Below, in pieces: positions 32,468 to 50,820 of a stretch of 64,000 nucleotides of DNA. How positions within the stretch are numbered: position 1 is the stretch's first letter; each line of letters starts with the position of its first letter. The stretch is from Sphingosinicella sp. GTDB taxonomy: Bacteria > Pseudomonadota > Alphaproteobacteria > Sphingomonadales > Sphingomonadaceae. The stretch lies in NCBI RefSeq assembly GCF_013911755.1, contig NZ_JACESP010000002.1, positions 210,734 to 274,733 of the forward strand, read 5' to 3'. The translations under genes and the position numbers were made by a program. Under the pieces are notes generated by a model, which was given only the letters and a program-made list of their open reading frames with translations, was not told the DNA's origin and made no database searches.

Positions 32468-32929
32468 ATGACCGCCCGATTGAACAATGCGCACAGCTAC
32501 GCACCCGAAGCCGTGAAGGCGATGATGGCGCTCGAAGAGAGCTTCAAGGACAGCGGCCTTGAACAGAATTTGATGGAACTGGTGCGGCTGCGCGCATCGC
32601 AGATCAACGGCTGCGCGTTCTGCATCCACATGCATTCAACCGACCTGCGCCGCGCGGGCGAGGACGAGATGCGGCTCTACATGCTGAACGCCTGGCGCGA
32701 ATCGACGCTCTACACGCCGCGCGAACGCGCCGCGCTCGGCTGGACCGATGCGCTCACGCGGCTTCCCGAAACGGGTGCACCGGATGCCGACTACGAAGCC
32801 GTGAAGGCCGCGTTCAGCGAGGCCGAGCAGGTGAACCTGACGCTTCTCATCGGATCGATCAACACATGGAACCGCTTGCAGGTCGGTTTCCGCGCCCCGC
32901 ACCCGGCGCTCCGCCGTGCCGCAGCCTGA
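32468..32929 (+). CDS. Carboxymuconolactone decarboxylase / AhpD-like protein, ECF41 partner
   Basis: A 153-residue all-helical AhpD-like protein. The redox/active-site motif CAFCIHMH (Cys49, Cys52, His56) sits in the typical RASQINGCAFCIHMHSTD context. Such proteins are peroxidase-like or decarboxylase-like; here the preserved CxxC favours a redox role. In ECF41 loci, a gene of this COE type (carboxymuconolactone decarboxylase, oxidoreductase or epimerase) is the standard neighbour and main target of the sigma factor. It overlaps the sigma gene by 14 bp. A GGAG lies before the ATG. Confidence 0.9.
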   Translation: MTARLNNAHSYAPEAVKAMMALEESFKDSGLEQNLMELVRLRASQINGCAFCIHMHSTDLRRAGEDEMRLYMLNAWRESTLYTPRERAALGWTDALTRLPETGAPDADYEAVKAAFSEAEQVNLTLLIGSINTWNRLQVGFRAPHPALRRAAA

Positions 32930-33779
32930 AGAGATCGCGCTGTTCGAGGCGCAGCGCCCCCGGCTGCTGCGCCTCGCCTACCGGATGCTCGGCTCGGTCG
33001 CGGAAGCCGAAGACGTGGTGCAGGACGCGTGGCTGCGCTGGTCCGAAGCGTCGGGCATCGATTCGCCCCCCGCGTGGCTGACGCGCGTCGTCACGCGCCT
33101 CTGCCTCGACCGGATGAAGTCGGCGCGGGCGCGGCGCGAAACCTATTTCGGCACATGGCTTCCCGAACCCCTGCTCGCCGAGCCCGAAGCCATCGCCGAT
33201 GATGTCACGCTCACGCTGATGCTCGCGCTTGAGCGCCTCTCTCCGCTGGAGCGCGCCGCCTTCCTGCTCCACGACGTGTTCGAGGTCAGCCTCGGCGACG
33301 TCGCCGCGACGCTCGGCCGCGATGCGGCTGCGGTGCGCCAGCTCGCCGTGCGTGCCCGGCGGCACGTGCAGGAGTCGAAATCGCGCTATACGGTGGAGGA
33401 CGGCGAGGCCGAACGTATCGCGCAGGCCTTCTTCACTGCGGCGCGCGACGGCGACACGGCGGCGCTGCAGGCGATGCTCGCCGAGAACGTCGTGATCCAT
33501 GCTGACGGCGGCGGGCGGGTTCTGGCCTTCCGCAACCCGATCCGCGGCATCGCGCGTGTGCTCCGGCTCTATGCGAGCCTGTTCCGCAAGTTCGGCGATG
33601 CCGCAACCTTGCTGCGTACGCTGCGCATCGACGGCCTTCCGGGCTTCGTCAGCCTCGATCGCGGCGACGTGCTGCAGACGACCGCGCTGGCGATCGAGGA
33701 CGGCCGCATCACCGCGATCTATATCGTGCGCAATCCCGACAAGCTCGGCCACGTCGCGCAGGCGCTGCCCATCAACTGA
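32916..33779 (+). CDS. ECF41-family sigma factor with SnoaL/NTF2-like C-terminal domain
   Basis: A 287-residue sigma factor from GTG. Region 2 (about 9-75) has RLLRLAYRMLGSVAEAEDVV; region 4 (about 105-160) has LSPLERAAFLLHDVFEVSLG. An NTF2-like domain follows (about 170-287) with the family markers DGGG (IHADGGGRVLAF) and the C-terminal NPDKL (IVRNPDKLGHV). In ECF41 proteins this C-terminal domain replaces an anti-sigma factor and tunes activity. Co-encoded with the AhpD-like gene behind an ECF41 promoter. Confidence 0.93.
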   Translation: MPQPEEIALFEAQRPRLLRLAYRMLGSVAEAEDVVQDAWLRWSEASGIDSPPAWLTRVVTRLCLDRMKSARARRETYFGTWLPEPLLAEPEAIADDVTLTLMLALERLSPLERAAFLLHDVFEVSLGDVAATLGRDAAAVRQLAVRARRHVQESKSRYTVEDGEAERIAQAFFTAARDGDTAALQAMLAENVVIHADGGGRVLAFRNPIRGIARVLRLYASLFRKFGDAATLLRTLRIDGLPGFVSLDRGDVLQTTALAIEDGRITAIYIVRNPDKLGHVAQALPIN

Positions 33780-33783
33780 GGCG

Positions 33784-34179
33784 TCAGCGCGGTTTCACCG
33801 CGAAAGCCTGAATCTCCACCTTCGCGCGATCCTCGACGAGCGCCGCGACCTGCACCAGCGCCATCGCCGGGAAGTTCTTGCCCATGACGTCGCGGTAAGC
33901 CGCGCCCACGCCCTTCAGATTGGCGAGGTATTCGGCCTTGTCGGTCACATACCACGTCATCGACGTCACGTGCTCCGGCCCCGCCCCGCCAGCCTTCAGC
34001 ACCGCCACGATATTCTCCAGCGTCTGCCGCGTCTGCGCCGCGAAATCGTCCGTCTCGAACTCTGCGTTCGCGTTCCAGCCGATCTGGCCGCCGACGAAGA
34101 TCAACGTGCCTTCGGCGGCAACGCCGTTCGCATAGCCGATGGGCTTCACCCAGCCTTCGGGTTGCAGGGTTTCAAACAT
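33784..34179 (-). CDS. RidA family protein (enamine/imine deaminase-like)
   Basis: A 131-residue YjgF/Rid protein starting MFETLQPEGWVKPIGYANG. It has LIFVGGQIGWNA and QTRQTLENIVAVLKAGGAGP typical of the family; VTSMTWYVTDKAEY and VQVAALVEDRAKVEIQAFAV follow, with Glu in place of the usual C-terminal context and no clear sign of the catalytic Arg of RidA proper, so it may be a specialised Rid subgroup. It is the last gene of the tryptophan/anthranilate operon and overlaps the thioesterase gene by 8 bp, so it may speed hydrolysis of the enamine formed after ring reduction. Confidence 0.85.
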   Translation of the reverse strand: MFETLQPEGWVKPIGYANGVAAEGTLIFVGGQIGWNANAEFETDDFAAQTRQTLENIVAVLKAGGAGPEHVTSMTWYVTDKAEYLANLKGVGAAYRDVMGKNFPAMALVQVAALVEDRAKVEIQAFAVKPR

Positions 34180-34588
34180 GGTGTGTCTCCAGATGCTGTT
34201 CGAAGGCCGCGCGCATGTCGTCCGGCCAAGGACGCGCGCGGTGGGTATCGGTGTCGGTGGCAACGACGCGCTGATCGGCGGACCAGAGCAGCGTGTCGCG
34301 ACAGGTAATGCGGTGCAGGAAATCCAGCGAGCTTCCGCCCACACGTTTCACGCCCACTTCGAATTCGAGCACGTCGCCATGCACGCCCGGATGGCTGAAC
34401 GTGATGTCCAGCCGAACGGTCGGCACGGAGATGCGGCGCTCACCCATCATCACCGGCCACGGCGAACCAATGGAGGCGAAGAATTCCTCCATCACCCCGA
34501 CGAGCAGGTTGAGATAGGACGGGAAGTAAGCAATCCCCGAAGGGTCGCAGTCCCCGAACCGCAAGGGCCGAACCGTCGTGAACGCCAT
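34172..34588 (-). CDS. Acyl-CoA thioesterase, 4HBT/hotdog family
   Basis: A 138-residue hotdog-fold thioesterase beginning MAFTTVRPLRFGDCDPSGIA. The D-x-D-x-x-G-I-x-Y-F signature (FGDCDPSGIAYFPSY) marks the 4-hydroxybenzoyl-CoA thioesterase family, with the catalytic Asp at about residue 15. In this operon it could release CoA from stalled aromatic or alicyclic thioesters, for example 2-aminobenzoyl-CoA. It lies 10 bp after the glutaryl-CoA dehydrogenase gene. Confidence 0.85.
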   Translation of the reverse strand: MAFTTVRPLRFGDCDPSGIAYFPSYLNLLVGVMEEFFASIGSPWPVMMGERRISVPTVRLDITFSHPGVHGDVLEFEVGVKRVGGSSLDFLHRITCRDTLLWSADQRVVATDTDTHRARPWPDDMRAAFEQHLETHHV

Positions 34589-34598
34589 GACGGGCCGC

Positions 34599-35774
34599 CT
34601 AGTTCGCGAAGGCTGCGATGCCGGTGATCGCGCGGCCGATGATGAGCGCGTGCACGTCGTGCGTGCCCTCATAGGTGTTCACCACCTCGAGGTTCACCAG
34701 ATGCCGCGCCACACCGAACTCATCGGAAATGCCGTTGCCGCCGAGCATGTCGCGCGCGGTGCGCGCGATATCGAGCGCCTTGCCGCAGCTGTTGCGCTTC
34801 AGGATCGAGGTCAGCTCGACAGGCGGGTGCCCGTCGTCCTTCATGCGGCCGAGCCGAAGGCAGCCCTGGAAGCCGAGCGAAATGTCCGTCACCATGTCGG
34901 CGAGCTTCTTCTGGATGAGCTGGTTCGCCGCGAGCGGCCGTCCGAACTGCTTCCTGTCCATCGTATATTGCCGCGCCGTCTTGTAGCAGGATTCGGCTGC
35001 TCCGAGCGCACCCCACGCAATGCCGAAGCGCGCCGAGTTAAGGCAGGTGAACGGCCCCTTGAGCCCACGCACCTCTGGGAACATCGCCTCTTCAGGCACG
35101 AACACCTCGTCCATCAGGATCTGGCCGGTGATCGAGGCGCGCAGGCCCACCTTGCCGTGGATCGCGGGCGCGGAGAGCCCTTCCATGCCCTTTTCGAGGA
35201 CGAAGCCGCGGATCGCGCCGTCGTCCGTCTTCGCCCACACGACGAACACGTCGGCGATCGGCGCGTTGGTGATCCATGTCTTGGCACCCGAAAGGCGGTA
35301 GCCACCCGGCACGCTCTTCGCGCGCGTCGCCATCGATCCGGGGTCGGAGCCGTGGTCGGGCTCGGTGAGGCCGAAACAGCCAATCCATTCGCCGCGCGCG
35401 AGCTTGGGCAGGTATTTCTGCTTCTGCGCTTCCGAACCGAACGTCTCGATCGGCACCATGACGAGCGAGGACTGCACGCTCATCATCGAACGGTAGCCGC
35501 TGTCGATCGCCTCGACCTCGCGCGCGATGAGGCCATAGGCGACGTAGCCGAAGCCCGCGCCGCCGTATTCGGGCGAAATCGTCGCGCCGAGCAGGCCAAG
35601 CTCGCCCATCTCGCGGAAAATCGCCGGGTCGGTCTTCTCATGCCGGAAGGCCTCGACAACGCGCGGCGCCAGCCGGTCCTCGGCATAGCGGCGCGCAGTT
35701 GTGGAAATCATCTGCTCGTCTTCGGTCAGCTGCTGCTCAAGGCCGAAGGGGTCAAAGGGATCGAAAGTTGCCAA
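34599..35774 (-). CDS. gcdH: Glutaryl-CoA dehydrogenase
   Basis: A 391-residue FAD acyl-CoA dehydrogenase that oxidises and decarboxylates glutaryl-CoA to crotonyl-CoA. The FAD/substrate stretch [38 protein letters not shown], and the C-terminal catalytic-Glu motif [20 protein letters not shown] are those of the glutaryl-CoA subgroup rather than of fatty-acyl dehydrogenases. It provides the exit from the reduced anthraniloyl ring to central metabolism. Confidence 0.9.
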
Positions 35775-35786
35775 GGTCGTGCTCCA

Positions 35787-36632
35787 CTAGAGTTCGGTGC
35801 GTACTTTCCAGAGTTCCGGGAACAATTCCACCTCAAGCATCTTGCGGAGGTAGGACACACCCGAGGTGCCCCCCGTGCCGCGCTTGAGGCCGATGACGCG
35901 TTCCACGGTCGTTACGTGGTTGAAGCGCCAGCGCCGGAAATAATCCTCGAAATCGACGAGTTTCTCGGCGAGTTCGTAAAGCGCCCAGTGTTTCTCCGGT
36001 GCGCGGTAGACGATCTTCCAAGCCTCGACGACATCCTGGCTCTCGGCGCGCGGGCTCGCCCAGTCGGTGCGCTCCGCATCCGCCTTGCCGATCGGGATGC
36101 CGCTGCGCTGAAGGAGGAGCAGCGCCTCGTCATAAAGGCTCGGTTTTGAAAGGATGTCCTCGAGCTGCGCCATGATCTCGGGCCGGTGCGCGTGCGGTTT
36201 CAGCATCGCGGCATTGCGGTTACCGGCGAGGAACTCGATCGCGCGGTACTGGTAGGACTGGAAGCCGGAGGACTGGCCGAGCGAATCCCGGAACTCGGTA
36301 TATTCGCTCGGTGTCATCGTGCGGAGCACGTCCCACGCGCTGTTCAGCTGCTCGAAGATGCGCGCCACGCGCGTCAGCATCTTGAAGGCGTTCGAGACGC
36401 GCCCCTCACGTACCGCTTCCATCGCGGCGCGCACCTCGTGAATGGCGAGCTTCATCCACAGCTCGGACGTCTGATGCTGGATGATGAACAGCATCTCGTC
36501 GTGCGCGGTCGAAAGCGGCTTCTGCGCGTTCAGAATCGGATCGAGCGACAGATAATCGCCGTACGACATGCGTTCCCGGAACGACATCTGCGCGCCGTCT
36601 TTGGCCGGGTCATAGGGTTGCTGGCTGGTCAC
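35787..36632 (-). CDS. kynA: Tryptophan 2,3-dioxygenase
   Basis: A 281-residue heme dioxygenase that opens the indole ring of L-tryptophan to N-formylkynurenine. Starting at the GTG at 36632, which overlaps the kynU stop as GTGA, gives [55 protein letters not shown], and the C-terminal [15 protein letters not shown] with [12 protein letters not shown] (heme ligand His and substrate loop) are intact. It follows kynU and precedes gcdH. Confidence 0.95.
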
Positions 36633-37822
36633 GTGACAAGTCCTCTTCTGTGATATTCGGGTTTGTCCCAGCTCCTTTTGCTCAGCACGTCCTCCATGAT
36701 GGAGACTGCGCCGAGCACCTCCTCCTCGCCGATATAGAGCGGCGTGAAACCGAACCGCAGCGCGTCCGGCGCGCGGAAATCGCCGATAACCCCGCGCGCG
36801 ATCAGCGCCTGCATGATCGCATAGCCCTGCGGGTGACGGAACGACACCTGGCTGCCGCGCGATGCGCTGTCGCGCGGCGAGGCGAGCACGAGATCGGGGC
36901 AGCGCGCCTCGACCTCGCGAATGAACAGCTCCGACAGGGCCACCGACTTGCGGCGCACGTCCGCCATATCGACGCCTTCCCACGCATCGAGCGCAGCATC
37001 GAGTACGGCGAGCGCGATGATCGGCGGCGTGCCGACGCGCATCCGCTCAATTCCGCTGCCGGGTCGGTAGTCCTGGTCGAACGCGAACGGTGCCTCGTGG
37101 CCCATCCAGCCGGACAGCGCCGGGCGCGCGGCGTCGGCGTGCTCCGCCGCCACATAGATGAACGCAGGCGCGCCGGGGCCGCCGTTCAGATACTTGTAGG
37201 TGCAGCCCACAGCGAAGTCCGCGCCGGCGCCCTTCACGTCGACGGGGATCGCACCCGCCGAGTGCGCGAGATCCCAGATCACTAGGGCGCCCACGGCATG
37301 CGCTTTCGCGATCAGCTTCGCCATGTCGTGCTTCCGGCCCGTGCGGTAGTCGACCTCGGTGATCATCAGCGCAGCGACGCTCTCGTCGATCGCGGCTTCC
37401 ACGGCTTCGGGTTCCACGACCTTCAGTTCATGCCCCCGCCCCAACGAAGCGATAAGGCCCTGCGCCATGTAGAGATCGGTGGGGAAGTTGCCGCTGTCCG
37501 ATACGATCACGCGCCGGTCGGGGCGCATTTCGAGCGCGGAGGCGAGCGCCTGATAGACCTTGATCGAAAGCGTATCGCCCATCACGACGCTGCCTTCGTG
37601 GGCGCCGATCAGCCGCGCGATGCGGTTGCCTACTTTGCGCGGCTGCACCATCCATCCGGCGGTGTTCCAGCCCTTGATGAGCTCGCCGCCCCATTCCTCT
37701 TCGATCACCTTCGCCGCGCGCGCCTTCGCGGCGATCGGCAGCGGGCCGAGCGAATTGCCGTCGAGGTAGATGACACCTTCGGGGATATGGAACATCGCGC
37801 GCGTTGCGCTGAAATCAGTCAT
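36629..37822 (-). CDS. kynU: Kynureninase
   Basis: A 397-residue PLP enzyme that cleaves L-kynurenine to anthranilate and alanine. [20 protein letters not shown] opens the protein, [15 protein letters not shown] follows, [13 protein letters not shown] holds the PLP-contacting Asp, and [20 protein letters not shown] has the Schiff-base lysine at residue 210. It starts [17 protein letters not shown], 8 bp after the anthranilate-CoA ligase gene. Confidence 0.96.
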
Positions 37823-37830
37823 TGGACTCT

Positions 37831-39447
37831 CTAAGCCTTCAATCGGAAGCGCTGGATCTTGCCGCTCTCGGTTTTGGGAAGCGCGGCCGTGAACCGCACC
37901 GAGCGGGGATACTTGTAGGGCGCGATCGTTGCCTTCACATGGTCCTGCAGGGCCTTCACGACGCCGTCGTCCGGCGCGATGCCCTCTACCAGCACCACAT
38001 GCGCCTCGACGATCTGCCCGCGCGCCTCGTCGGCAACACCGATCACCGCGCATTCGAGCACATGCGGATGCTTGAGCAGCGCGGCTTCCACCTCCGGCCC
38101 GGCGATATTGTAGCCCGCAGAGATGATCATGTCGTCGGATCGCGCGGCGAAGTGGAACCGACCCTCCGCGTCCTGCGTGAAGGAATCGCCGGTGAGGTTC
38201 CAGCCGTTCCTCACGTACTTCTTCTGCCGCGTGTCCGCGAGATAGCGGCAGCCCACCGGCCCGCGCACCGCAAGCCGCCCGACCTCGCCGCGCGGCAGTT
38301 CGTTCATGTCTTCGTCGACGATCTTCGCTTCATAGCCGGTGAGCGGCCGCCCGGTGCAGGCCGGGTGCATGTCGTCGAGGCGGTTCGAGATGAAGATATG
38401 CAGCAGCTCGGTCGCGCCGATGCCGTCGAGGATAGGCTTGCCGGTCTTGCGCACCCAGTCTTCGAACACCGGCGCAGGCAGCGTTTCGCCCGCAGACACG
38501 GCAATGCGCAGCGAGGAGAGGTCCGCGCCCTCGTCAAACGCTGCGAGCATCATCCGATACGCTGTCGGCGCGGTGAAGCTGATCGTCGCCTTGTAGGTCT
38601 CGATGATCTCGATCATGCTTTGCGGCGAGGCGTGTTCGAGCAGCGTCGCCGCGGCGCCGAAACGCAGCGGGAAGATTGCGAGGCCGCCGAGCCCGAAGGT
38701 GAACGCGAGCGGCGGCGAGCCGACGAAAATGTCGTCCGGGCGCACACCGAGCACTTCCTTCGCGTAGGCGTCCGCGATGATAAGGAGATCGCGGTGGAAG
38801 TGCATCGTCGCCTTGGGCTCGCCCGTGGTGCCCGAGGTGAAGCCGAGCAGGGCAACGTCGTCGCGTCCCGTGTTCACCGCCTCGAATGTCACGGCCTTAC
38901 CGAGCGCGACGCGATCAAGTTCCGCATCGTGGTTGGCAGTGCCGTCGAAACCGACGACGGCTTTCAGGAAGCGGCTGTCCTTCGCGCACAGCACCATTTC
39001 GTCCATCAGACGCGTGTCGCAGAGCGCGAGGCTGATTTGCGCCTTGTCGACGATCTTCGAAAGCTCGCCCGCGCGCAGCATCGGCATGGTGTTGACGACG
39101 ACCGCGCCCGCCTTCGTCGCGGCGAGCCAGCACGCGACCATCGCGGGATTGTTCGCCGAACGGATGAGCACGCGATGGCCCGGCTTGACGCCGTAGTCTT
39201 CGACAAGCGCGTGCGCGATGCGGTTCGACCAGTCGGTCAGCTCCTTGTAGGTGCGGCGGCGCCCGTTGCCGATCAGCGCGGTGTGATCGCCGAAGCCCTT
39301 GCCGACCATCGCGTCGGTCAGTTCGACGCCGGCGTTCAGATAATCCGGGTATTCAAAGCCATCGAGCAGCAGGTCCGGCCACTCCGAAAACGGTGGCAGA
39401 TTGTCCCGCGTAAACGTGTCGACATGCGCCGACGGCCCCAAAATCAT
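37831..39447 (-). CDS. 2-Aminobenzoate (anthranilate)-CoA ligase, benzoate-CoA-ligase family
   Basis: A 538-residue AMP-forming acyl-CoA synthetase. The P-loop [20 protein letters not shown], the core [38 protein letters not shown] and the C-terminal catalytic lysine region [15 protein letters not shown] are present. The family includes benzoate-, 4-hydroxybenzoate- and 2-aminobenzoate-CoA ligases; the neighbouring kynU and aminobenzoyl-CoA monooxygenase/reductase genes favour anthranilate. It overlaps the acyl-CoA dehydrogenase gene (ATGA). Confidence 0.88.
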
Positions 39448-40595
39448 GCTCCCCCTCCCATCACCTGACGCGCAATCACCACTTTTTGTACGTCCGATGC
39501 GCCTTCGTAGATGCGAAGCGCCCGGATCTCCCGGTACAGGCTTTCGACGATGTGGCCGTGGCGCACGCCGTCCCCGCCATGAAGCTGCACCGCCTTGTCG
39601 ATCACGCATTGCGCGCGGTCGGTGGCGTAGAGCTTCGCCATCGCCGCTTCGCGCGTCACGCGCGGCGCGCCCATGTCCTTGGTCCATGCGGCGCGGTAGA
39701 CGAGGAGCGCGGCGGCATCGACGTCGAGCGCCATGTCCGCGATGTGGCCCTGCACCATCTGAAGGTCGAACAGCGGCGCGCCGAAGAGTGTGCGCTCGCC
39801 CGTCCGCTTGATGCTCTCCTCAAGCGCACGCCGCGCGAAACCGAGCGCGGCGGCACCCACCGTCGAGCGGAACACGTCGAGCACCGACATGGCGATGCGA
39901 AAGCCTTCTCCGGGCTTCCCGATCATGGCCGAAGCGGGGACGCGCATGTCATTGAAGCGCAGTCGCGCGAGCGGGTGCGGCGCGATCACGTCGATACGCT
40001 CGGCGATCTCCAGCCCCGGGGTATCCGCCGCCACGACGAATGCCGAAATGCCCTTGGCGCCCGGCGCCTCGCCCGTCCGCGCGAACACGGTGTAGACGTC
40101 CGCAATACCGCCGTTCGAAATCCACGTCTTTTCGCCCGAAAGCACGTAGTCGTCGCCTTCGCGGCGTGCCGTCATGTCCATGTTGGCGACGTCCGAGCCC
40201 GAACGCGGCTCCGATAGCGCGAACGCGGAAATTGCCTTCCCCGCCCGCGTCTTCCTCAGCCATTCGCGGTGGCCTTCGTTGCCGAACAGGCTGATCGTCC
40301 CGGTGCCGAGCCCCTGCATCGCAAAGGCGAAGTCAGCAAGCCCATCATGCCGCGCCAGCGTCTCGCGCGTGATGCACAAAGTGCGCACGTCGAGAGGGGC
40401 CACGGCATCGGGGTCTACCGCCGTCGGCAGCAGCCAGCCGCCTGCGCCCAACATGTCCACGAGACGGCGGCACGCGGCGTCTGTGTCGCCGTGGTCGACC
40501 GGAAGATTCTCCCGGCACCACGCCTCCAGCCGCTCGGCGTAGTCACGGTGCCGATCTTCGAAGAACGGCCAGTTCAGAAAGCTGCGGTCCGCCAT
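39444..40595 (-). CDS. Acyl-CoA dehydrogenase of the anthranilate pathway
   Basis: A 383-residue FAD enzyme starting [40 protein letters not shown] and [18 protein letters not shown] are the flavin and substrate motifs, and [20 protein letters not shown] ends the domain with the catalytic glutamate region. It probably oxidises an alicyclic CoA thioester formed after ring reduction of 2-aminobenzoyl-CoA. TGATG and ATGA overlaps join it to its neighbours. Confidence 0.88.
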
Positions 40596-41398
40596 CAATC
40601 CCCCTCGAACACCGGAGTCTGCTTCGCCACGAACGCCTTGTAAGCCCGTTCGAAGTCCCGCGTCTGCATACAGATCGCCTGCGCCTGCGCCTCGGCCTCG
40701 ATCGCCTGATCGAGGCTCATCGACCATTCGTGGTTGAGCTGCGTCTTGGTGATGCCATGTGCAAAGGTCGGCCCGGCAATGATGCGCCGCGCGATCTCCA
40801 GCGCATCCGCCTCCAGCGTCTCCGCCGCCACCAGCCGGTTGTAATAGCCCCAGCGCTCGCCTTCCTCGGCGCTCATCGTGCGCCCCGTGTAAAGCAGCTC
40901 CGCCGCACGCCCCTGCCCGATGATGCGCGGCAGGATCGCACACGCGCCCATGTCGCATCCGGCAAGGCCGACGCGCGTGAACAGGAACGCCGTCTTCGCC
41001 TGCGGCGTGGCGATGCGGATATCCGACGCCATGGTGATGATCGCGCCCGCACCCACCGCGACACCGTCCACCGCCGCGATGATCGGCTTGCCGCAGTGGA
41101 TCATCGCCTTCACGAGATCGCCGGTCATGCGCGTGAAGGCGAGAAGCTGCTTCATGTCCATCGCGACCAGCGGTCCGATGATGTCGTGGACGTCGCCGCC
41201 CGAACAGAAGTTGCCGCCGTTCGGGAGGAAGGCCACAGCATCGACGTCATCGGCGTAGACAAGCGCGCGGAACGTATCGCGCAGCTCGGCATACGAGTCG
41301 AATGTCAGCGGGTTCTTGCGTTCGGGCCGGTCGAGCCGGACGCGCGCGATGCGGTCCTCGACCTCCCAGAGGAAATGCTTCGGCTTCAATCCTGCCAT
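40595..41398 (-). CDS. Enoyl-CoA hydratase/isomerase family protein
   Basis: A 267-residue crotonase-fold protein starting [20 protein letters not shown]. The oxyanion-hole segments [15 protein letters not shown] and [20 protein letters not shown] are typical. [20 protein letters not shown] occupies the position of the catalytic loop. Role in hydration or ring cleavage of the alicyclic CoA intermediates is inferred from context; related crotonases are found in anthranilate, salicylate and benzoate CoA routes. Confidence 0.88.
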
Positions 41399-41403
41399 CT
41401 GCG

Positions 41404-41868
41404 TCAATGTCCGCCCTCCCACTTGCTCTGGAATGTTCTGAGTGTACCCGCGAGGTGCGCGGCCTCTTCGGGATCGACGTCGGCGAGAAGCGCGTCGATC
41501 CAGCGTTCATGCGCTGCGGCCATGGCCTTGAACTGTATGGCGCCCGCCTCCGTCAGCTTGACGATGAAGGCGCGGCGGTCGCCGTCGCGGGCGGTGCGGG
41601 CGACCAATCCATCCGATACCAGGCGGTCGACGATGCCGGTGACGTTGCCGTTGGAGACAAGCAGGAAACGCGACAGCTCGCTCATCATCATGCCATCGGG
41701 CTGGCGATCGAGTGCCGCCATGACGTCAAAGCGCGGCAGTGTCGTGTCGAACTCGGCCTTCAGCCGTTCGCGCATTTCCGCCTCGATCAGGCGTGTCGCG
41801 CGGAGCAGGCGCAGCCAGAGACGGACACGTTCCTTGCCGGCGGCAGACGCAAGCGGCGCGCTCACCAT
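41404..41868 (-). CDS. MarR family transcriptional regulator
   Basis: A 154-residue winged-helix protein starting [20 protein letters not shown]. The DNA-binding core is [20 protein letters not shown] followed by the wing [18 protein letters not shown]. The gene sits inside the operon between the SDR and enoyl-CoA hydratase genes, so it probably controls this operon in response to an aromatic CoA ester or anthranilate. A candidate operator is the inverted repeat at 44947-44976. Confidence 0.9.
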
Positions 41869-42608
41869 GTCTCGCCCCCCGACACCGAAATGGCTTGACC
41901 AGTGACGGATGCCGCGCCTTCGCTCGCCAGCCAAAGCACGGTGGCGGCGATCTCGTCCGGCGTGATGAAGCGGCCCTGCGGATTCGTCGCGGCGAGACTG
42001 GCGCGCGCATCCTCGCGGCTGCGGCCGGTTGTCGCCATGATGCGCTCGATCGACTCTTCGAGAAGATCGGTCTCCGTGAAGCCGGGACATACGGCGTTGA
42101 CCGTGACACCCGATTTCGCCGTCTCCGCCGCGAGCGCGCGCATCAGCCCGACGACGCCGTGCTTCGCCGCCACATAGGGCGCGACATAGGCATAGCCCTT
42201 GAGACCTGCTGTCGAGGCGATGAAGATGATCCGCCCGGCGCGGCGCTTCACCATCGGCGCGATGGCAGGCTGCACGGTGAGGAACGCGCCCGTGAGGTTC
42301 ACGGCGAGCGCCGCCTGCCACCCCGCCTGCGTCACCTTGTGCGCAGGAGCGCTCTCGGCGGCCCCGGCGTTCGCCACCACAATGTCGAACGGTCCATGCG
42401 CCTCGTGGAGCGCGCGCATCGCGGCCTCGTCGGTCACATCCGCCTGCACGGCGCTTATGCGCTCACTTTCCGCCCCCACCGTTTCCAGTGGCGCGAGGCG
42501 GCGGCCGCAGATCGTGACATCGACCCCTGCGCCTGCAAGCGCGAGGGCGATGGCCCGGCCCGCGCCGGTGCCACCGCCCGTGACGAGAGCGCTTTGCCCT
42601 GCGATCAT
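41862..42608 (-). CDS. Short-chain dehydrogenase/reductase of the anthranilate pathway
   Basis: A 248-residue Rossmann-fold SDR. The cofactor motif is [15 protein letters not shown], the NAG motif VANAGAAES, and the catalytic set Ser-Tyr-Lys is in [21 protein letters not shown]. It likely serves as a 3-hydroxyacyl-CoA or ring-ketone dehydrogenase. It overlaps the monooxygenase/reductase gene by 4 bp and marR by 7 bp. Confidence 0.88.
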
Positions 42609-44896
42609 ACCTTGCCCGTCATCTGCTCGGGCCCGCGCTCGGCGAGACGGAACGCCTGATCACGCCCTGGGAGATAGGGCTTCGGCCACTCCGTCTGCTT
42701 GTCGCCGAGCGTCGCCGCCGCGCGCAGCGTCCAGTAGGGATCGGCAAGATGCGGGCGGGCAAGGCAGACGAGATCGGCGCGGCCTGCCATGAGGATCGAG
42801 TTGGCATGGTCAGGCTCGTAGATGTTGCCCACGGTCATCGTCGCCATGCCGGTCTCGTTGCGGATACGGTCGGAGAACGGCGTCTGGAACATGCGGCCGT
42901 AGACAGGCTTCGCGCGCACCGAGGTCTGCCCTGCGGAGACGTCGCAGATGTCGACGCCCGCCGCCTTCAGGATTTCGGCGATCTGTACGGCTTCTTCCGG
43001 CGTCACACCTTCGTCGCCGACCCAGTCGTTCGCGGAGATACGCACCGAGATCGGCTTTTCTTCCGGCCACACGGCACGGACCGCGCGAAACACCTCAAGC
43101 GGATAGCGCATCCGGTTTTCGAGGCTGCCGCCGTATTCGTCCTCGCGCCGGTTGGTGAGCGGGCTGATGAACGACGAGAGCAGATAGCCGTGCGCGGCGT
43201 GAATCTCGATCATGTCGAAGCCGGCGCGGTTCGCCATTTCCGCCGCCGCAACGAACTCGTCGCGAACACGGTCCATGTCGGCGCGGCCCATCGGCTTCGG
43301 CACGGAGTTGCGCTCCGACCACGGCACCGCAGAGGCGGCAAGCAGCGGCCAGTTGCCCGCGGGAAGCGGCGCGTCCATCTCTTCCCAGCCGACCCGCGTT
43401 GAACCCTTGGGGCCGGAATGGCCGAGCTGCGCGCAGATCTTTGCGTGGGTTTCGGCATGAACGAAATCAACAAGCCGCTTCCATGCCGCCTCGTGCTCGG
43501 GCGCGTAAAGGCCCGGGCAGCCGGGCGTGATGCGGCCTTCGGGGCTGACGCAGGTCATCTCGATGAACAGGAGGCCGGCGCCGCCCTTTGCGCGCTCGGC
43601 ATAGTGCACAAAGTGCCAGTCGGTGGGGCAACCATCGACAGCCTTGTACTGCGCCATCGGCGAGACGACGATGCGGTTGGCGAGCGTCATGCCGCGAAGG
43701 CTGAGCGGCGCGAACATCGGCGCGCGGCGCACGTTTCCGGCGCCCGCTTGCTGCTGGAACCATGTCTCGGCACTGTCGAGCCACGCGCGGTCGCGCAGGC
43801 GCAGGTTCTCGTGCGAAATGCGCTGCGAGCGTGTGAGCAGCGCATAGTTGAACTGCACGGGATCGAGATCGAGGTAGCGCTCCACCTCCTCGAACCATTC
43901 CATCGAGTTGCGCGCCGCCGATTGCAGGCGCAGCACCTCGACACGGCGCGCGTCCTCATACTTCTGGAAGGCAGCGGCCAGCGTCGGTTCGCTGTGAATA
44001 TAGTCCGCGAGCGCCACGGCGCTTTCCATCGCGAGCTTGCTGCCCGAACCGATCGAGAAGTGTGCGGTCGCCGCCGCGTCGCCGAGCAGCGCGACGTTCT
44101 GGTACGACCAGCGCTCGCAAAGCACGCGCGGGAAATTGATCCACGCCGATCCGCGCACATGCGCCGCGTTCGACATCAGGCTGCGGCCGCCGAGGTGCTT
44201 TGCAAAGATGCGCTCGCACGTTGCGATCGACTCTTCCTTCGTCATCTCGCCAAAGCCGAAGGCCGCCCACGTGTCTTCGGTGCACTCGACGATGAACGTC
44301 GCGGTGTCGGCATCGAACTGGTAGGCGTGCGCCCACACCCAGCCGTGTTCGGTCTTTTCAAAGATGAAGGTGAACGCGTCGTCGAATTTCTGGTGCGTGC
44401 CCAGCCAGACGAACTTGCATTTGCGCACATCTATGTTCGGCTGGAAATGGTCGGCGAACTCGGTGCGCGTGCGGGAGTTGAGCCCGTCCGCGGCAACGAC
44501 GAGGTCGTACTTGTCCATGTAGGCCTGGGTCGGCTCGGCCTCGGTTTCGAAGCGGATTTCGACGCCGAGCTCCAGCGCCCGCGCCTGAAGCAGCAGCAGG
44601 AGCTGCTTGCGACCGATGCCGCAGAAGCCGTGCCCGGTGGAAAGCGTGCGCACGCCCTTGTGAACGACGGCGATGTCGTCCCAATAGGCGAAATGCTCCC
44701 GGATCGCGGCAGCGCTGACGGGGTCGTTCGCGGCGAGGTTATCGAGCGTCTCGTCGGAAAGCACGACGCCCCAGCCGAACGTGTCATCGGGCCGGTTGCG
44801 TTCGATGACCGTGATACGATGCGCCGGATCGCGCAGCTTCATGCAGATCGCGAAATAGAGGCCCGCAGGCCCGCCGCCGAGTACAGCCACATCCAT
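42605..44896 (-). CDS. 2-Aminobenzoyl-CoA monooxygenase/reductase (fused FAD hydroxylase and OYE-type reductase)
   Basis: A 763-residue fusion. Residues 1 to about 390 are a group A flavin monooxygenase ([51 protein letters not shown]). Residues about 395-763 are an old-yellow-enzyme-type NADH:flavin oxidoreductase ([54 protein letters not shown]). This architecture is that of 2-aminobenzoyl-CoA monooxygenase/reductase (Azoarcus evansii) and of salicylyl-CoA 5-hydroxylase; kynU and the ligase favour the first. It hydroxylates and reduces the ring to 2-amino-5-oxocyclohex-1-ene-carboxyl-CoA. First gene of the operon. Confidence 0.92.
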
Positions 44897-44946
44897 CGGA
44901 TGATCTCCCTTATCGATGAGTCGGATGCTGACATGGCGACTTTATT

Positions 44947-44976
44947 ATTTCAAGCCTAAAGTTTCAGGGTTGAAAT
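44947..44976. promoter_or_regulatory. Inverted repeat, candidate MarR operator in the divergent promoter
   Basis: ATTTCAAGCC (44947-44956) and GGGTTGAAAT (44967-44976) match as an inverted repeat at 9 of 10 positions around a 10-base spacer. Each arm contains TTGAAA, which resembles a -35 element facing outward to either gene. It lies 50 bp before the monooxygenase/reductase ATG and 44 bp before the hydrolase ATG. Confidence 0.6.
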
Positions 44977-45020
44977 ATTTTTTGCGTGGCGCATTGTGCG
45001 CGAGCCAAACAGGAGTGCAT

Positions 45021-45833
45021 ATGATCACCGACTGGGACGACGCTTACGCCAATGCCGCGCACATCGTGGGCGGTGATCGCTGGCCGGATGCGTGGGTCGA
45101 ACCCGCCCGGCGCTGGCGCGACGCGTGCGGCGCACGAGCGATGCTGGACCTTCCCTACGGTGACGCTCCCCGCAATCGCTACGACCTGTTCCTGCCCGAA
45201 GGTGAGCCGCGCGGCCTCACTGTCTTCATCCACGGCGGCTACTGGCTCGCGCTCGACAAGAGCTATTGGTCGCACCTGTCACGCGGGCCGCTCGCGCGCG
45301 GCTTCGCCGTGGCGATGCCGTCCTACACGCTCTGTCCGGAGAACCGCATCGGTGGCATCACGCGCGAGATTGGCGCCGCGGTCACGACAGCCGCGGCGCG
45401 CATAAGCGGCCCGATCTTCATAACCGGCCACTCGGCGGGCGGACATCTCGCCGCGCGCATGATTTCCGCATCGTCGCCGCTCTCGCCGGAGATCGCAGCC
45501 CGCGTCGCGCATACCGTGCCGATTTCGGCGCTCGCCGACCTGCGGCCGCTGATGCGGACGGAAATGAACGCGACGCTCCACATCGACGATGCCGAGGCTG
45601 CCGCCGAAAGCCCTGCCCTGCTCGGTCCGTTCCCCGGCGCGCGTGTCACCTGCTGGGTCGGCGCGGAGGAGCGACCAGAGTTCCGCCGCCAGTCGGCGCT
45701 TCTCGCCAACATCTGGACCGGGCTCGGCGCCGCCACGGCGCTCGTGGAGGAAGCGGGTCGCCACCACTTCAATGTCATCGACGGCCTCGAAGACCCCGAT
45801 CACCCGCTGACGCGCACGCTGCTCTGCGAATAG
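45021..45833 (+). CDS. Alpha/beta hydrolase, kynurenine-formamidase-like
   Basis: A 270-residue alpha/beta hydrolase from the ATG behind AGGAG. It has the HGGYW oxyanion-hole motif (residues 71-75) shared with animal and bacterial serine-type kynurenine formamidases, the nucleophile elbow GHSAGGH (Ser138) and the C-terminal His in GRHHFNVI (about 248-249). It is divergent from the operon that carries kynA and kynU but lacks a metal-type kynB, so it most likely hydrolyses N-formylkynurenine to kynurenine. Another esterase substrate is not excluded. Confidence 0.82.
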   Translation: MITDWDDAYANAAHIVGGDRWPDAWVEPARRWRDACGARAMLDLPYGDAPRNRYDLFLPEGEPRGLTVFIHGGYWLALDKSYWSHLSRGPLARGFAVAMPSYTLCPENRIGGITREIGAAVTTAAARISGPIFITGHSAGGHLAARMISASSPLSPEIAARVAHTVPISALADLRPLMRTEMNATLHIDDAEAAAESPALLGPFPGARVTCWVGAEERPEFRRQSALLANIWTGLGAATALVEEAGRHHFNVIDGLEDPDHPLTRTLLCE

Positions 45834-45834
45834 C

Positions 45835-47835
45835 TCAGTTGGCTTTCAGCCAGCGGTCGTACCAGTCGATGTTGGCGCGGATGCGGTGCGCGAGGTAGCT
45901 CGGCACGGTGAGGCCGTGGTTTTCGCCCGGGTAGACGATCAGCTTCGTGGGGACACCGCGCGTCTTCAGCGTCAGGTACATCTGCTCGGCGCCGACGCAA
46001 GGCACGTTGTCGTCCGCATCAGCACACTGGAACAAGGTCGCTGCCGTAATGCGCTCCGGCTCGAAGAACGGGTAGGCGAGCTTCTTCCACGTGTCGAAAT
46101 TTTCCCACGGCGTGCCGAGTTCGAGGACGTACTCGCGCTGGTACATGTCGACGCCCCACGTGGCGAAGATGTTGGAAACGCCGGCGCCCGCCACGGCCGC
46201 CTTGATGCGCTTGTCGTAGGCGATCATGTAGCCGGTGAGGATGCCGCCGTAGCTCCAGCCGCCCGCGCCGATGCGGCTGGGGTCCGCGATGCCCGTATCG
46301 ATCGCATTGGTGATGCCGGCGCTGATATCTTGCGCATCGACATTGCCCCAGTCGGCATAGATCGCGCGCGAGAAATCGAAGCCGCGCCCCGATGAACCGC
46401 GCGGATTGATCTTGAGTACGACATAGCCTGCGGCCGCAAGCGCGCGCGCATCGAGATCGAACTCGTGGCTGTGCTGATAGACAGGCCCCCCGTGGAGATC
46501 CGCGATCAGCGGATAGCGCTTCGTCGGGTCGTAATCCGGCGGCAGCACATAGAAGCCGTGGATTTCAGCGTCGCCGCTCTTGAAGCTGACGTCACGCGTC
46601 TCGCCGAGCGCGCGGTCCTTCAGCCACGGATTGTGGTCGGTGAGCGGGCGGGCTCCGGCCTTGTCGAGCGCGAAAAGCTCGGCGGGCTTCTCGTTGGTGG
46701 TCTCCAGAATGGCGATGCGCCCGTCTTTCGCGACCGCATAGTCATAGGCGAAGCGGGTGCCCTTGGTGAGGTAGCTGATCTTGCCGCTCTTCGCGTCGAC
46801 GCGCGCCAGCCACGTGTCCCGGTCGCCCTCGATCTGCGTGAGGATCGACCCATCCGGCGCGAATCGCGGGTAGTAGAACCAGAGATCGAGCTTGGCGGGC
46901 CGCGTCACCGTGCCTGTCGTCACATCGGCAACGGCAAGGTGCGGCGTGCCGTAGTAGAGCCACTTGTCCTCCATGCCTTCGAGCCAGACGATCCGCTTCG
47001 AATCCGGCGACCACGAGACGCCTGCGACCCAATCCGGATCGTCGTCTGCGTTCGCGGTGGGGCTGAGCTTGCGCGGCTCGCCGCCCTCGGATGACAGCAC
47101 ATAGATTTCAGTGTTCAGCGTCTTGTCGGTCTCGCCGTGGTCCTTCGCGGTGTAGGCGATGAGCTTGCCATCCGGCGACCAGGCGGGGCGCCAGTGATCG
47201 CGCGCGCCGCTCGTCAGCTGCCGCGCGGCGCCGCTCGCAAGATCGACGATGAACAGCTGCTGCGTGCGGTCGTCGAGATAGCCGCGCCCGTCCTCCTTGA
47301 AAAAGAAGCGCTCGGTTTCGACGGGGGGCGGATTCTTCGCCTTGCTGCCAACCGCCTTGCCGACTTCCGCGACCACGACCGCATATTTCCCGTCGGGAGA
47401 CAGATCGTAGTCGCTGATGCCGCCGGGGAGGCTGGAAACGCGTTTCCCTGGGCCGCCTGCGGCCGGCATCGTCCAGAGCTGGTCGCTGTCGTCCTCTTCC
47501 TCCTCGCCCGCCGTCTTCTCGCCGGCATCGCTGAGGAACACGATGGTCTTGCCATCGGGCGTGTAGCGCGGACTATATTCGCTCACCTCCGCCGTGCTTG
47601 TGAGCGGTTTGGCGGCTCCGCCCTTCCACGGGACGGTCCACAGATCGCTCGTTTTCTCATCCCGCGCCTGATCGGGAGTCGAGACTGTGTAGGCGATCGT
47701 GCCGCCATCGGGCGCGAAGGTGGGCTCGCTGACATCCGTGAGCCGGTAATAGTCGTCCGGCACCACGGCGGAGGGGGCCGCAGAAGCAAGGCTGGACGAC
47801 GCCAGCAGCAAGACACTGCCCAGAATCCGGTACAT
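45835..47835 (-). CDS. S9 family prolyl-oligopeptidase-type peptidase, exported
   Basis: The product is 666 residues from the ATG at 47835 (MYRILGSVLLLASSSLASAA), which starts a signal peptide; an in-frame ATG 18 bp earlier lacks a better ribosome site. An N-terminal beta-propeller with TolB-like repeats (SPDGK, APDGG) spans about 30-420; the C-terminal hydrolase domain has the nucleophile GGWSYGGILTGYM, Asp in DADDNVPCVG and His in GENHGL. It probably trims peptides in the periplasm. It follows the TonB receptor gene by 28 bp in the same direction. Confidence 0.92.
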   Translation of the reverse strand: MYRILGSVLLLASSSLASAAPSAVVPDDYYRLTDVSEPTFAPDGGTIAYTVSTPDQARDEKTSDLWTVPWKGGAAKPLTSTAEVSEYSPRYTPDGKTIVFLSDAGEKTAGEEEEDDSDQLWTMPAAGGPGKRVSSLPGGISDYDLSPDGKYAVVVAEVGKAVGSKAKNPPPVETERFFFKEDGRGYLDDRTQQLFIVDLASGAARQLTSGARDHWRPAWSPDGKLIAYTAKDHGETDKTLNTEIYVLSSEGGEPRKLSPTANADDDPDWVAGVSWSPDSKRIVWLEGMEDKWLYYGTPHLAVADVTTGTVTRPAKLDLWFYYPRFAPDGSILTQIEGDRDTWLARVDAKSGKISYLTKGTRFAYDYAVAKDGRIAILETTNEKPAELFALDKAGARPLTDHNPWLKDRALGETRDVSFKSGDAEIHGFYVLPPDYDPTKRYPLIADLHGGPVYQHSHEFDLDARALAAAGYVVLKINPRGSSGRGFDFSRAIYADWGNVDAQDISAGITNAIDTGIADPSRIGAGGWSYGGILTGYMIAYDKRIKAAVAGAGVSNIFATWGVDMYQREYVLELGTPWENFDTWKKLAYPFFEPERITAATLFQCADADDNVPCVGAEQMYLTLKTRGVPTKLIVYPGENHGLTVPSYLAHRIRANIDWYDRWLKAN

Positions 47836-47863
47836 AACCCCTGTCCCTCTCATGTTTCCGCGC

Positions 47864-50761: not shown

Positions 50762-50820
50762 AGCTGCTGCTCCCACCCGTTTTGCCGGTTTCCGGCGTTC
50801 TTTCGAACTTCCCGGAGCGG

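Follow-up and report, generated by a model that had tools for sequence, protein, structure and literature searches.

Which enzyme would release formate from N-formylkynurenine in a bacterium that carries the tryptophan 2,3-dioxygenase (kynA) and kynureninase (kynU) genes and lacks a match over cut-off to KynB, the bacterial kynurenine formamidase? This question is raised by a locus of a Sphingosinicella sp. (contig NZ_JACESP010000002.1), situated in a stretch of 64,000 nucleotides that is referred to below as the window. There, 11 genes follow one another in the same direction on the minus strand (44896 to 33784; intergenic gaps of -8 to +12 bp), and an alpha/beta hydrolase gene (45021-45833, plus strand) is divergent from the first of them, with 124 bp between the two starts (45021 versus 44896). 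That first gene encodes a fused FAD monooxygenase and old-yellow-enzyme-type reductase (2-aminobenzoyl-CoA monooxygenase/reductase, ABMR). The reading that we favor, at a probability of roughly 0.78, is that the run is a tryptophan catabolic operon, that the divergent hydrolase is an animal-type kynurenine formamidase in place of KynB, and that a MarR-type regulator exerts control from a double palindrome. An earlier description of the locus from its letters alone (the original prediction) had centered on the joining of the kynurenine and anthraniloyl-CoA routes; this was rejected as the novelty, since the operon is recurrent and the route is known from the literature. The unusual part is the proposed non-KynB formamidase, which that description left unsaid.

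The divergent hydrolase and its distribution

With a score of 382.2 against a cut-off of 320, the hydrolase is a member of the NCBIfam family NF058665 ('HaHSL hormone-sensitive lipase'). The earlier suggestion that it is formamidase-like held as regards its presence, its divergent orientation and the listing of a Drosophila kynurenine formamidase (PDB 4e11) among its matches (E 6e-12), but not as regards family titles, as no Pfam or NCBIfam model gave it the title of a formamidase. After 2pbl and a 'lipase', this Drosophila enzyme is the nearest solved structure, and in the fold and profile ranking kynurenine formamidase stands above all other solved esterases listed except 2pbl and 9n8r. The two proteins share approximately 21-22% identity, and their motifs align. 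The hydrolase contains an HGGYW oxyanion motif and a GHSAG nucleophile motif, together with an acid and a histidine, and residues H71, G73, W75, S138, E217 and H249 are invariant across 10 aligned hydrolase sequences. Furthermore, Ser138, Glu217 and His249 sit at places that match the catalytic residues Ser138, Glu216 and His244 given for HaHSL in the accessible part of its description (PMC6921082), and Glu217 is, by this analogy, probably the catalytic acid. The start of the hydrolase is best placed at the ATG at 45021, which is preceded by AGGAG, rather than at 44916, because the alignments open at residue 40 of the long open reading frame.

The formamidases of bacteria and eukaryotes are described as being of different types, with the metal enzyme KynB in bacteria versus an unlike, alpha/beta hydrolase enzyme in eukaryotes (PMC4243253, PMC4217691, each as far as its available text extends). 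A literature search found no assignment of the animal-type formamidase to bacteria, with most subscription papers, UniProt and KEGG lying outside that search. In the genome of the window itself there are only weak matches to the KynB model TIGR03035, the best of which (E 2.2e-5) is not over the 223-bit cut-off.

Across 246 genomes of the order to which the window belongs, in which the hydrolase was scored with the HaHSL model and KynB by its curated cut-off, the hydrolase is found at 120 bits or more in 38 and KynB in 70, and the two co-occur in a single genome (G054; Fisher p 1.6e-5, shared ancestry ignored). In 28 of the 38 genomes with the hydrolase, kynU lies within 10 kb of it (within 1 kb in 26), and for the remaining 10 no kynU is listed on the contig of the hydrolase. 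In seven genomes, all from a single family, the hydrolase match is separated from the kynA match by 15-31 bp. In one genome (G052; L028, 4220-6328) the hydrolase and kynureninase share one open frame of 714 codons, which gives 702 residues when read from its ATG and contains the Pfam domains of both proteins, and a 625-codon frame that starts near a contig end and is without the hydrolase N-terminus holds both in a second genome of the same genus (G073, L029). These two fusions may be a single event, and the fused frame could possibly encode a two-step enzyme that converts N-formylkynurenine to anthranilate. In three genomes of the family of the window (G025, G044, G164), kynA and kynU are adjacent, with no KynB over cut-off and no hydrolase above 120 bits; perhaps these have a third formamidase, or need none.

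A further set of 50 named genomes was chosen by the hydrolase alone. A tryptophan dioxygenase match is present in 43 (34 over the cut-off, 3 close to it or in two pieces, and 6 weak), ABMR is over its cut-off in 42, and KynB in none of the 50. It is likely, if held somewhat less firmly than the reading of the locus itself, that the NF058665 family (with PDB 2PBL) and more distant relatives in the order are kynurenine formamidases of the animal type in bacteria, having replaced KynB non-orthologously across many Alphaproteobacteria. On this view the enzyme is fused to kynureninase in one genus, and here a single MarR operator would control both it and the anthraniloyl-CoA genes, making tryptophan-to-CoA-ester catabolism one transferable regulon.

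Several observations weigh against these assignments. HaHSL, the sole characterized member of NF058665 found, was assayed as an esterase on p-nitrophenyl esters, and a term search of the main text of that paper, to the extent accessible, returned no words starting with kynureni or formamid (PMC6921082). The 120-bit threshold for the hydrolase was chosen after the score gap (121.7 versus 86.8 bits) had been seen, and the order statistics take no account of shared ancestry. The genome with both enzymes (G054) has two kynA copies, one adjoined by KynB and the other by the hydrolase, and G023, which has the hydrolase and KynB fragments under the cut-off, is a likely second overlap. A tryptophan dioxygenase match is missing in 7 of the 50 hydrolase-chosen genomes, two of which (Haematobacter, L084; Yoonia, L105) keep the hydrolase beside kynU, possibly for the scavenging of external (formyl)kynurenine. 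Moreover, among 80 named hydrolase loci, the best of 575 from the alignment, 33 have no kyn, ligase or ABMR gene in the fetched stretch at the thresholds used, and the neighbors at those examined varied, including MurA (L043), succinate-semialdehyde dehydrogenase (L106, L114), a PreT/GltD-like protein (L080), an FMO-like monooxygenase (L110), an acyl-CoA synthetase (L107) and a heavy-metal ATPase with an AndAa-like reductase (L069). For some of these loci a kynA-ABMR operon lies elsewhere in the same genome (L080/L132, L087/L135, L098/L137, L114/L139), in one case a hydrolase adjoins kynA and ABMR elsewhere in the genome (L110/L141), and L099 was tallied among them, yet the start of ABMR adjoins its hydrolase. 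Finally, possession of the genes need not confer growth: Cupriavidus metallidurans CH34, in which abm and kyn genes are annotated, is stated in the consulted part of one report not to grow on anthranilate (PMC8879955).

Alternatively, the hydrolase might be a general carboxylesterase, or an esterase that yields anthranilate from esters such as methyl anthranilate, with N-formylkynurenine handled by another enzyme or by spontaneous hydrolysis: the family name and the HaHSL assays in the available text (PMC6921082) speak for such an activity, as do the seven genomes without a dioxygenase and the 33 loci without kyn or abm neighbors. We nevertheless consider it unlikely, because the hydrolase is found next to kynureninase, and joined to it in one open frame, even where no abm genes are close by, because none of the 50 genomes has KynB over the cut-off, and because only 2pbl and 9n8r among the solved esterases listed outrank kynurenine formamidase. 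A different order of steps, in which N-formylkynurenine is first cleaved by kynureninase and the hydrolase then removes the formyl group from N-formylanthranilate, would predict the same neighbors, and formylanthranilate is named as a kynureninase product in the part of one paper that was available (PMC4646340). Although the present data do not separate the two substrates, this order seems distinctly improbable, given that eukaryotic formamidases of the same fold are described, in the portions consulted, as acting on N-formylkynurenine (PMC4243253, PMC4217691).

A palindrome common to both transcription units

A double palindrome, TTTCAAGCCTAAAGTTTCAGGGTTGAAA, lies at 44948-44975 between the hydrolase and ABMR and is proposed, from the conservation of its half-site and its uniqueness in the genome, as a MarR operator common to both. 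The half-site TTCAAGNNTNAA is present in 12 of 13 ABMR/hydrolase intergenic regions (L099 being the miss), compared with 0.016 regions expected from mononucleotide shuffles, and is placed 50-83 bp from the ABMR start in carriers from the Hyphomicrobiales, Rhodospirillales, Rhodobacterales and the order of the window. In a genome-wide scan allowing up to 3 mismatches, the double site occurs at this locus only. No promoter-like site of the consensus sigma-70 type was seen in the 124-bp common intergenic region.

The shared control is less general than this intergenic set would imply. Of 36 ABMR loci, 18 have the TTTCAAGCTTGAAA box (14 bases, up to 2 mismatches) upstream of this gene, including two from genomes with kynA on another contig (L009, L021). 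In the 78 loci that showed no ABMR start, by contrast, the box precedes the hydrolase in only 19, even with up to 3 mismatches allowed. The box is therefore probably a site of the abm MarR regulator, one that the hydrolase shares when it stands beside ABMR. Binding of MarR at the double palindrome would then probably repress both divergent promoters until an aryl-CoA ester, likely anthraniloyl-CoA, builds up. The idea that the whole path from tryptophan to crotonyl-CoA is one regulated unit stands for the tight operon of kynA and kynU with the 2-aminobenzoyl-CoA genes and for the hydrolase on the common intergenic region with its conserved palindrome, and does not extend to the end of the route.

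Operon content, recurrence and origin

The order on the minus strand is ABMR, an SDR dehydrogenase, MarR, an enoyl-CoA hydratase family protein (ECH), an acyl-CoA dehydrogenase (ACAD), an aryl-CoA ligase, kynU, kynA, a glutaryl-CoA dehydrogenase (GCDH), a thioesterase and RidA. All genes named in the original prediction are found where it had placed them, packed on one strand with overlaps of 1-8 bp or gaps of up to 12 bp, curated models being over cut-off for ABMR, kynA, kynU, ECH and the divergent hydrolase, and the possibility that the cluster was a misreading was rejected on the Pfam and NCBIfam matches. The longest open reading frames are too long for several genes, the likely starts being 36632 (a GTG) for kynA, 37822 for kynU, 39447 for the ligase, 40595 for ACAD, 41868 for MarR, 34588 for the thioesterase and 34179 for RidA.

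Every catalytic step below is inferred, as are the sequence of the later reactions, the binding of MarR and its effector. Both genes of the anthranilate branch of the kynurenine pathway exceed the cut-offs of curated models. The product of kynA (35787-36632; TIGR03036, 421.8 versus 390.7) would convert tryptophan to N-formylkynurenine, from which the hydrolase would strip formate through a Ser-Glu-His triad, comparable to the serine triad of animal formamidases, in place of the metal-dependent KynB. The product of kynU (36629-37822; TIGR01814, 275.0 versus 246.4, with a KYNU_C match) would then yield anthranilate and alanine. The ligase (37831-39447), probably an anthranilate-CoA ligase that would form anthraniloyl-CoA, appears to fall among the benzoate-CoA ligases by family; the solved structure that it matches best is the anthranilate-CoA ligase 4wv3 (E 4e-85), followed by benzoate-CoA ligases, and its score with TIGR02262 (352.7) is under the family cut-off of 375.25, which counts against the assignment. 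ABMR (42605-44896; NF006101, 1289.5 bits versus a cut-off of 1078, the match spanning residues 1-758; Pfam FAD_binding_3 and Oxidored_FMN), which has the fused monooxygenase and reductase architecture, would hydroxylate and reduce anthraniloyl-CoA to a non-aromatic amino-oxo-cyclohexene-carboxyl-CoA. Deamination, ring opening and beta-oxidation would fall to RidA (33784-34179; an enamine/imine deaminase type, Pfam Ribonuc_L-PSP 2.5e-21), ECH (40595-41398; NF006107, 478.3 versus 330; possibly a ring-cleaving hydrolase or a hydratase), the SDR (41862-42608; adh_short 1e-50; a 4-bp overlap with ABMR) and ACAD (39444-40595; Acyl-CoA_dh_1/_M). These genes, linked with the internal MarR gene (41404-41868; MarR_2 1.6e-11), make up the content of an abm operon. 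The 4HBT-type thioesterase (34172-34588; 4HBT_2 5e-16) would free stalled CoA esters, and GCDH (34599-35774; TTG start), the second acyl-CoA dehydrogenase of the cluster, would convert glutaryl-CoA to crotonyl-CoA as a possible finish. GCDH matches solved enzymes over its whole length (3d6b, E 3e-206), and 9 of the 10 distinct PDB chains at E of 1e-80 or below are named glutaryl-CoA dehydrogenase or putatively so, the tenth being an acyl-CoA dehydrogenase.

The same core order recurs in other Alphaproteobacteria, in support of a single operon. ABMR, ligase, kynU and kynA lie beside the hydrolase within the fetched 10 kb in 6 of the 80 loci (L053, L058, L081, L082, L088, L093). In 17 longer stretches from relatives, selected for proximity of kynA and ABMR, a same-strand ABMR-SDR-MarR-ECH-ACAD core with ligase and kynA is present in 13 (Aquamicrobium, Mesorhizobium microcysteis, Nitratireductor, Aquibium, Hoeflea (2), Thalassospira (3), Roseitalea, Paracoccus (2) and Sulfitobacter); kynU is outside the operon in 4 of these 13, and the hydrolase is seen divergent beside ABMR in 7. 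Within the order of the window, kynA and ABMR are at most 20 kb apart on one contig in 8 of the 49 genomes with both placed, that of the window included, in same-strand (G000, G076, G107) or divergent (G004, G018, G028, G009) layouts or 18 kb apart (G003). A function of ligase and ABMR mainly on salicylate and salicylyl-CoA, with the kyn genes as chance neighbors, would suit the title of NF006101 ('bifunctional salicylyl-CoA 5-hydroxylase/oxidoreductase') and the sub-cut-off ligase score but is very improbable, as kynA, mostly with kynU, is a same-strand member of the operon in several genera and lies no more than 12.5 kb from ABMR in 16 of 35 genomes with both placed, and the best structure match of the ligase is 4wv3.

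GCDH is not part of the shared operon, which counts against the favored reading. At 50% identity or more it is present in none of the 17 longer stretches, and the genome of the window holds a second GCDH elsewhere that is 66% identical to that of the cluster, so that the continuation to glutaryl-CoA and crotonyl-CoA that had been predicted is a plausible inference. In other layouts, GCDH is divergent from ABMR (G013; L016, 4039-5199) or adjoins the hydrolase (L100, L108).

As to origin, quick trees (SH-aLRT support in brackets; rows chosen by hydrolase or ABMR score) place the ABMR of the window with those of four Phyllobacteriaceae (93), apart from the other ABMRs of its own order save G076 and G107, its hydrolase with two Hyphomicrobiales (85), its kynA in a group of 15 rows comprising 13 Hyphomicrobiales and one genome of its own family, G039 (98), and its kynU with Azospirillum (83). 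The hydrolase exceeds the NF058665 cut-off in 4 of the 246 order genomes, that of the window being the sole one in its family. Base composition was rejected as a sign of transfer, of which it gives no clear indication: G+C content is 65.6% in the cluster, 65.6% on its left and 60.8% on its right. Despite this, the trees and the rarity of the hydrolase in the order fit the acquisition of the copy in the window as a unit, probably from Hyphomicrobiales-like bacteria. In the hydrolase tree, a record titled Bacillus subtilis SK6B4 (L091) groups with a Rhizobiales sequence (100) and is probably mislabeled or contaminated.

Adjoining the cluster, an ECF sigma factor gene of the SigJ type with a SnoaL domain (32916-33779) is convergent with the operon, only 4 bp separating its end from that of RidA. 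On the other side, an S9 peptidase gene with sub-cut-off matches to Dpp5 and to a lasso-peptide isopeptidase model stands beside a TonB-dependent receptor gene (45835-50776); the two may serve together in the uptake of peptides.

Relation to known systems

The analysis confirms the cluster and its route, most of which is of a known type, combining the kynurenine pathway with an Azoarcus-type 2-aminobenzoyl-CoA pathway; the hydrolase as a formamidase appears well supported by context and structure. The 2-aminobenzoyl-CoA pathway is said to be encoded by the abm operon of Azoarcus evansii, reportedly described by Schuehle and colleagues in 2001. That operon reportedly likewise brings together a fused monooxygenase/reductase, ligase, ACAD, ECH, dehydrogenase, MarR and a RidA-type protein, whereas here kynU, kynA and GCDH are inserted and the formamidase-like hydrolase is divergent. 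Phaeobacter inhibens, according to work reportedly published by Drueppel and colleagues in 2014, degrades tryptophan by way of kynurenine and 2-aminobenzoate, the overall route proposed here, 'as known from Azoarcus evansii'. In Aquamicrobium a branched-chain-type ABC transporter occupies the place between kynA and RidA, whereas the 11 genes of the window include no transporter. Arthrobacter Rue61a degrades anthranilate by a 2-aminobenzoyl-CoA-type route (PMC3534580, in its accessible part).

If the assignment is correct, many Alphaproteobacteria fall outside the divide between eukaryotic and prokaryotic formamidases, a function can be given both to 2PBL, whose solved structure had none assigned, and to a family that now bears the name 'lipase', and missing-kynB gaps are filled in many genomes. 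The common palindrome offers a testable model for the coupling of CoA ring activation to tryptophan supply. KynB (TIGR03035), with an unrelated fold and a dependence on metal (PMC4243253, as far as available), catalyzes the same reaction that is proposed for the hydrolase. HaHSL of Halocynthiibacter arcticus (PMC6921082, as above) and 2pbl of Ruegeria sp. TM1040 are of the same NCBIfam family by name, HaHSL with matching triad positions, but differ in description, as a lipase/esterase and a putative thioesterase, respectively.

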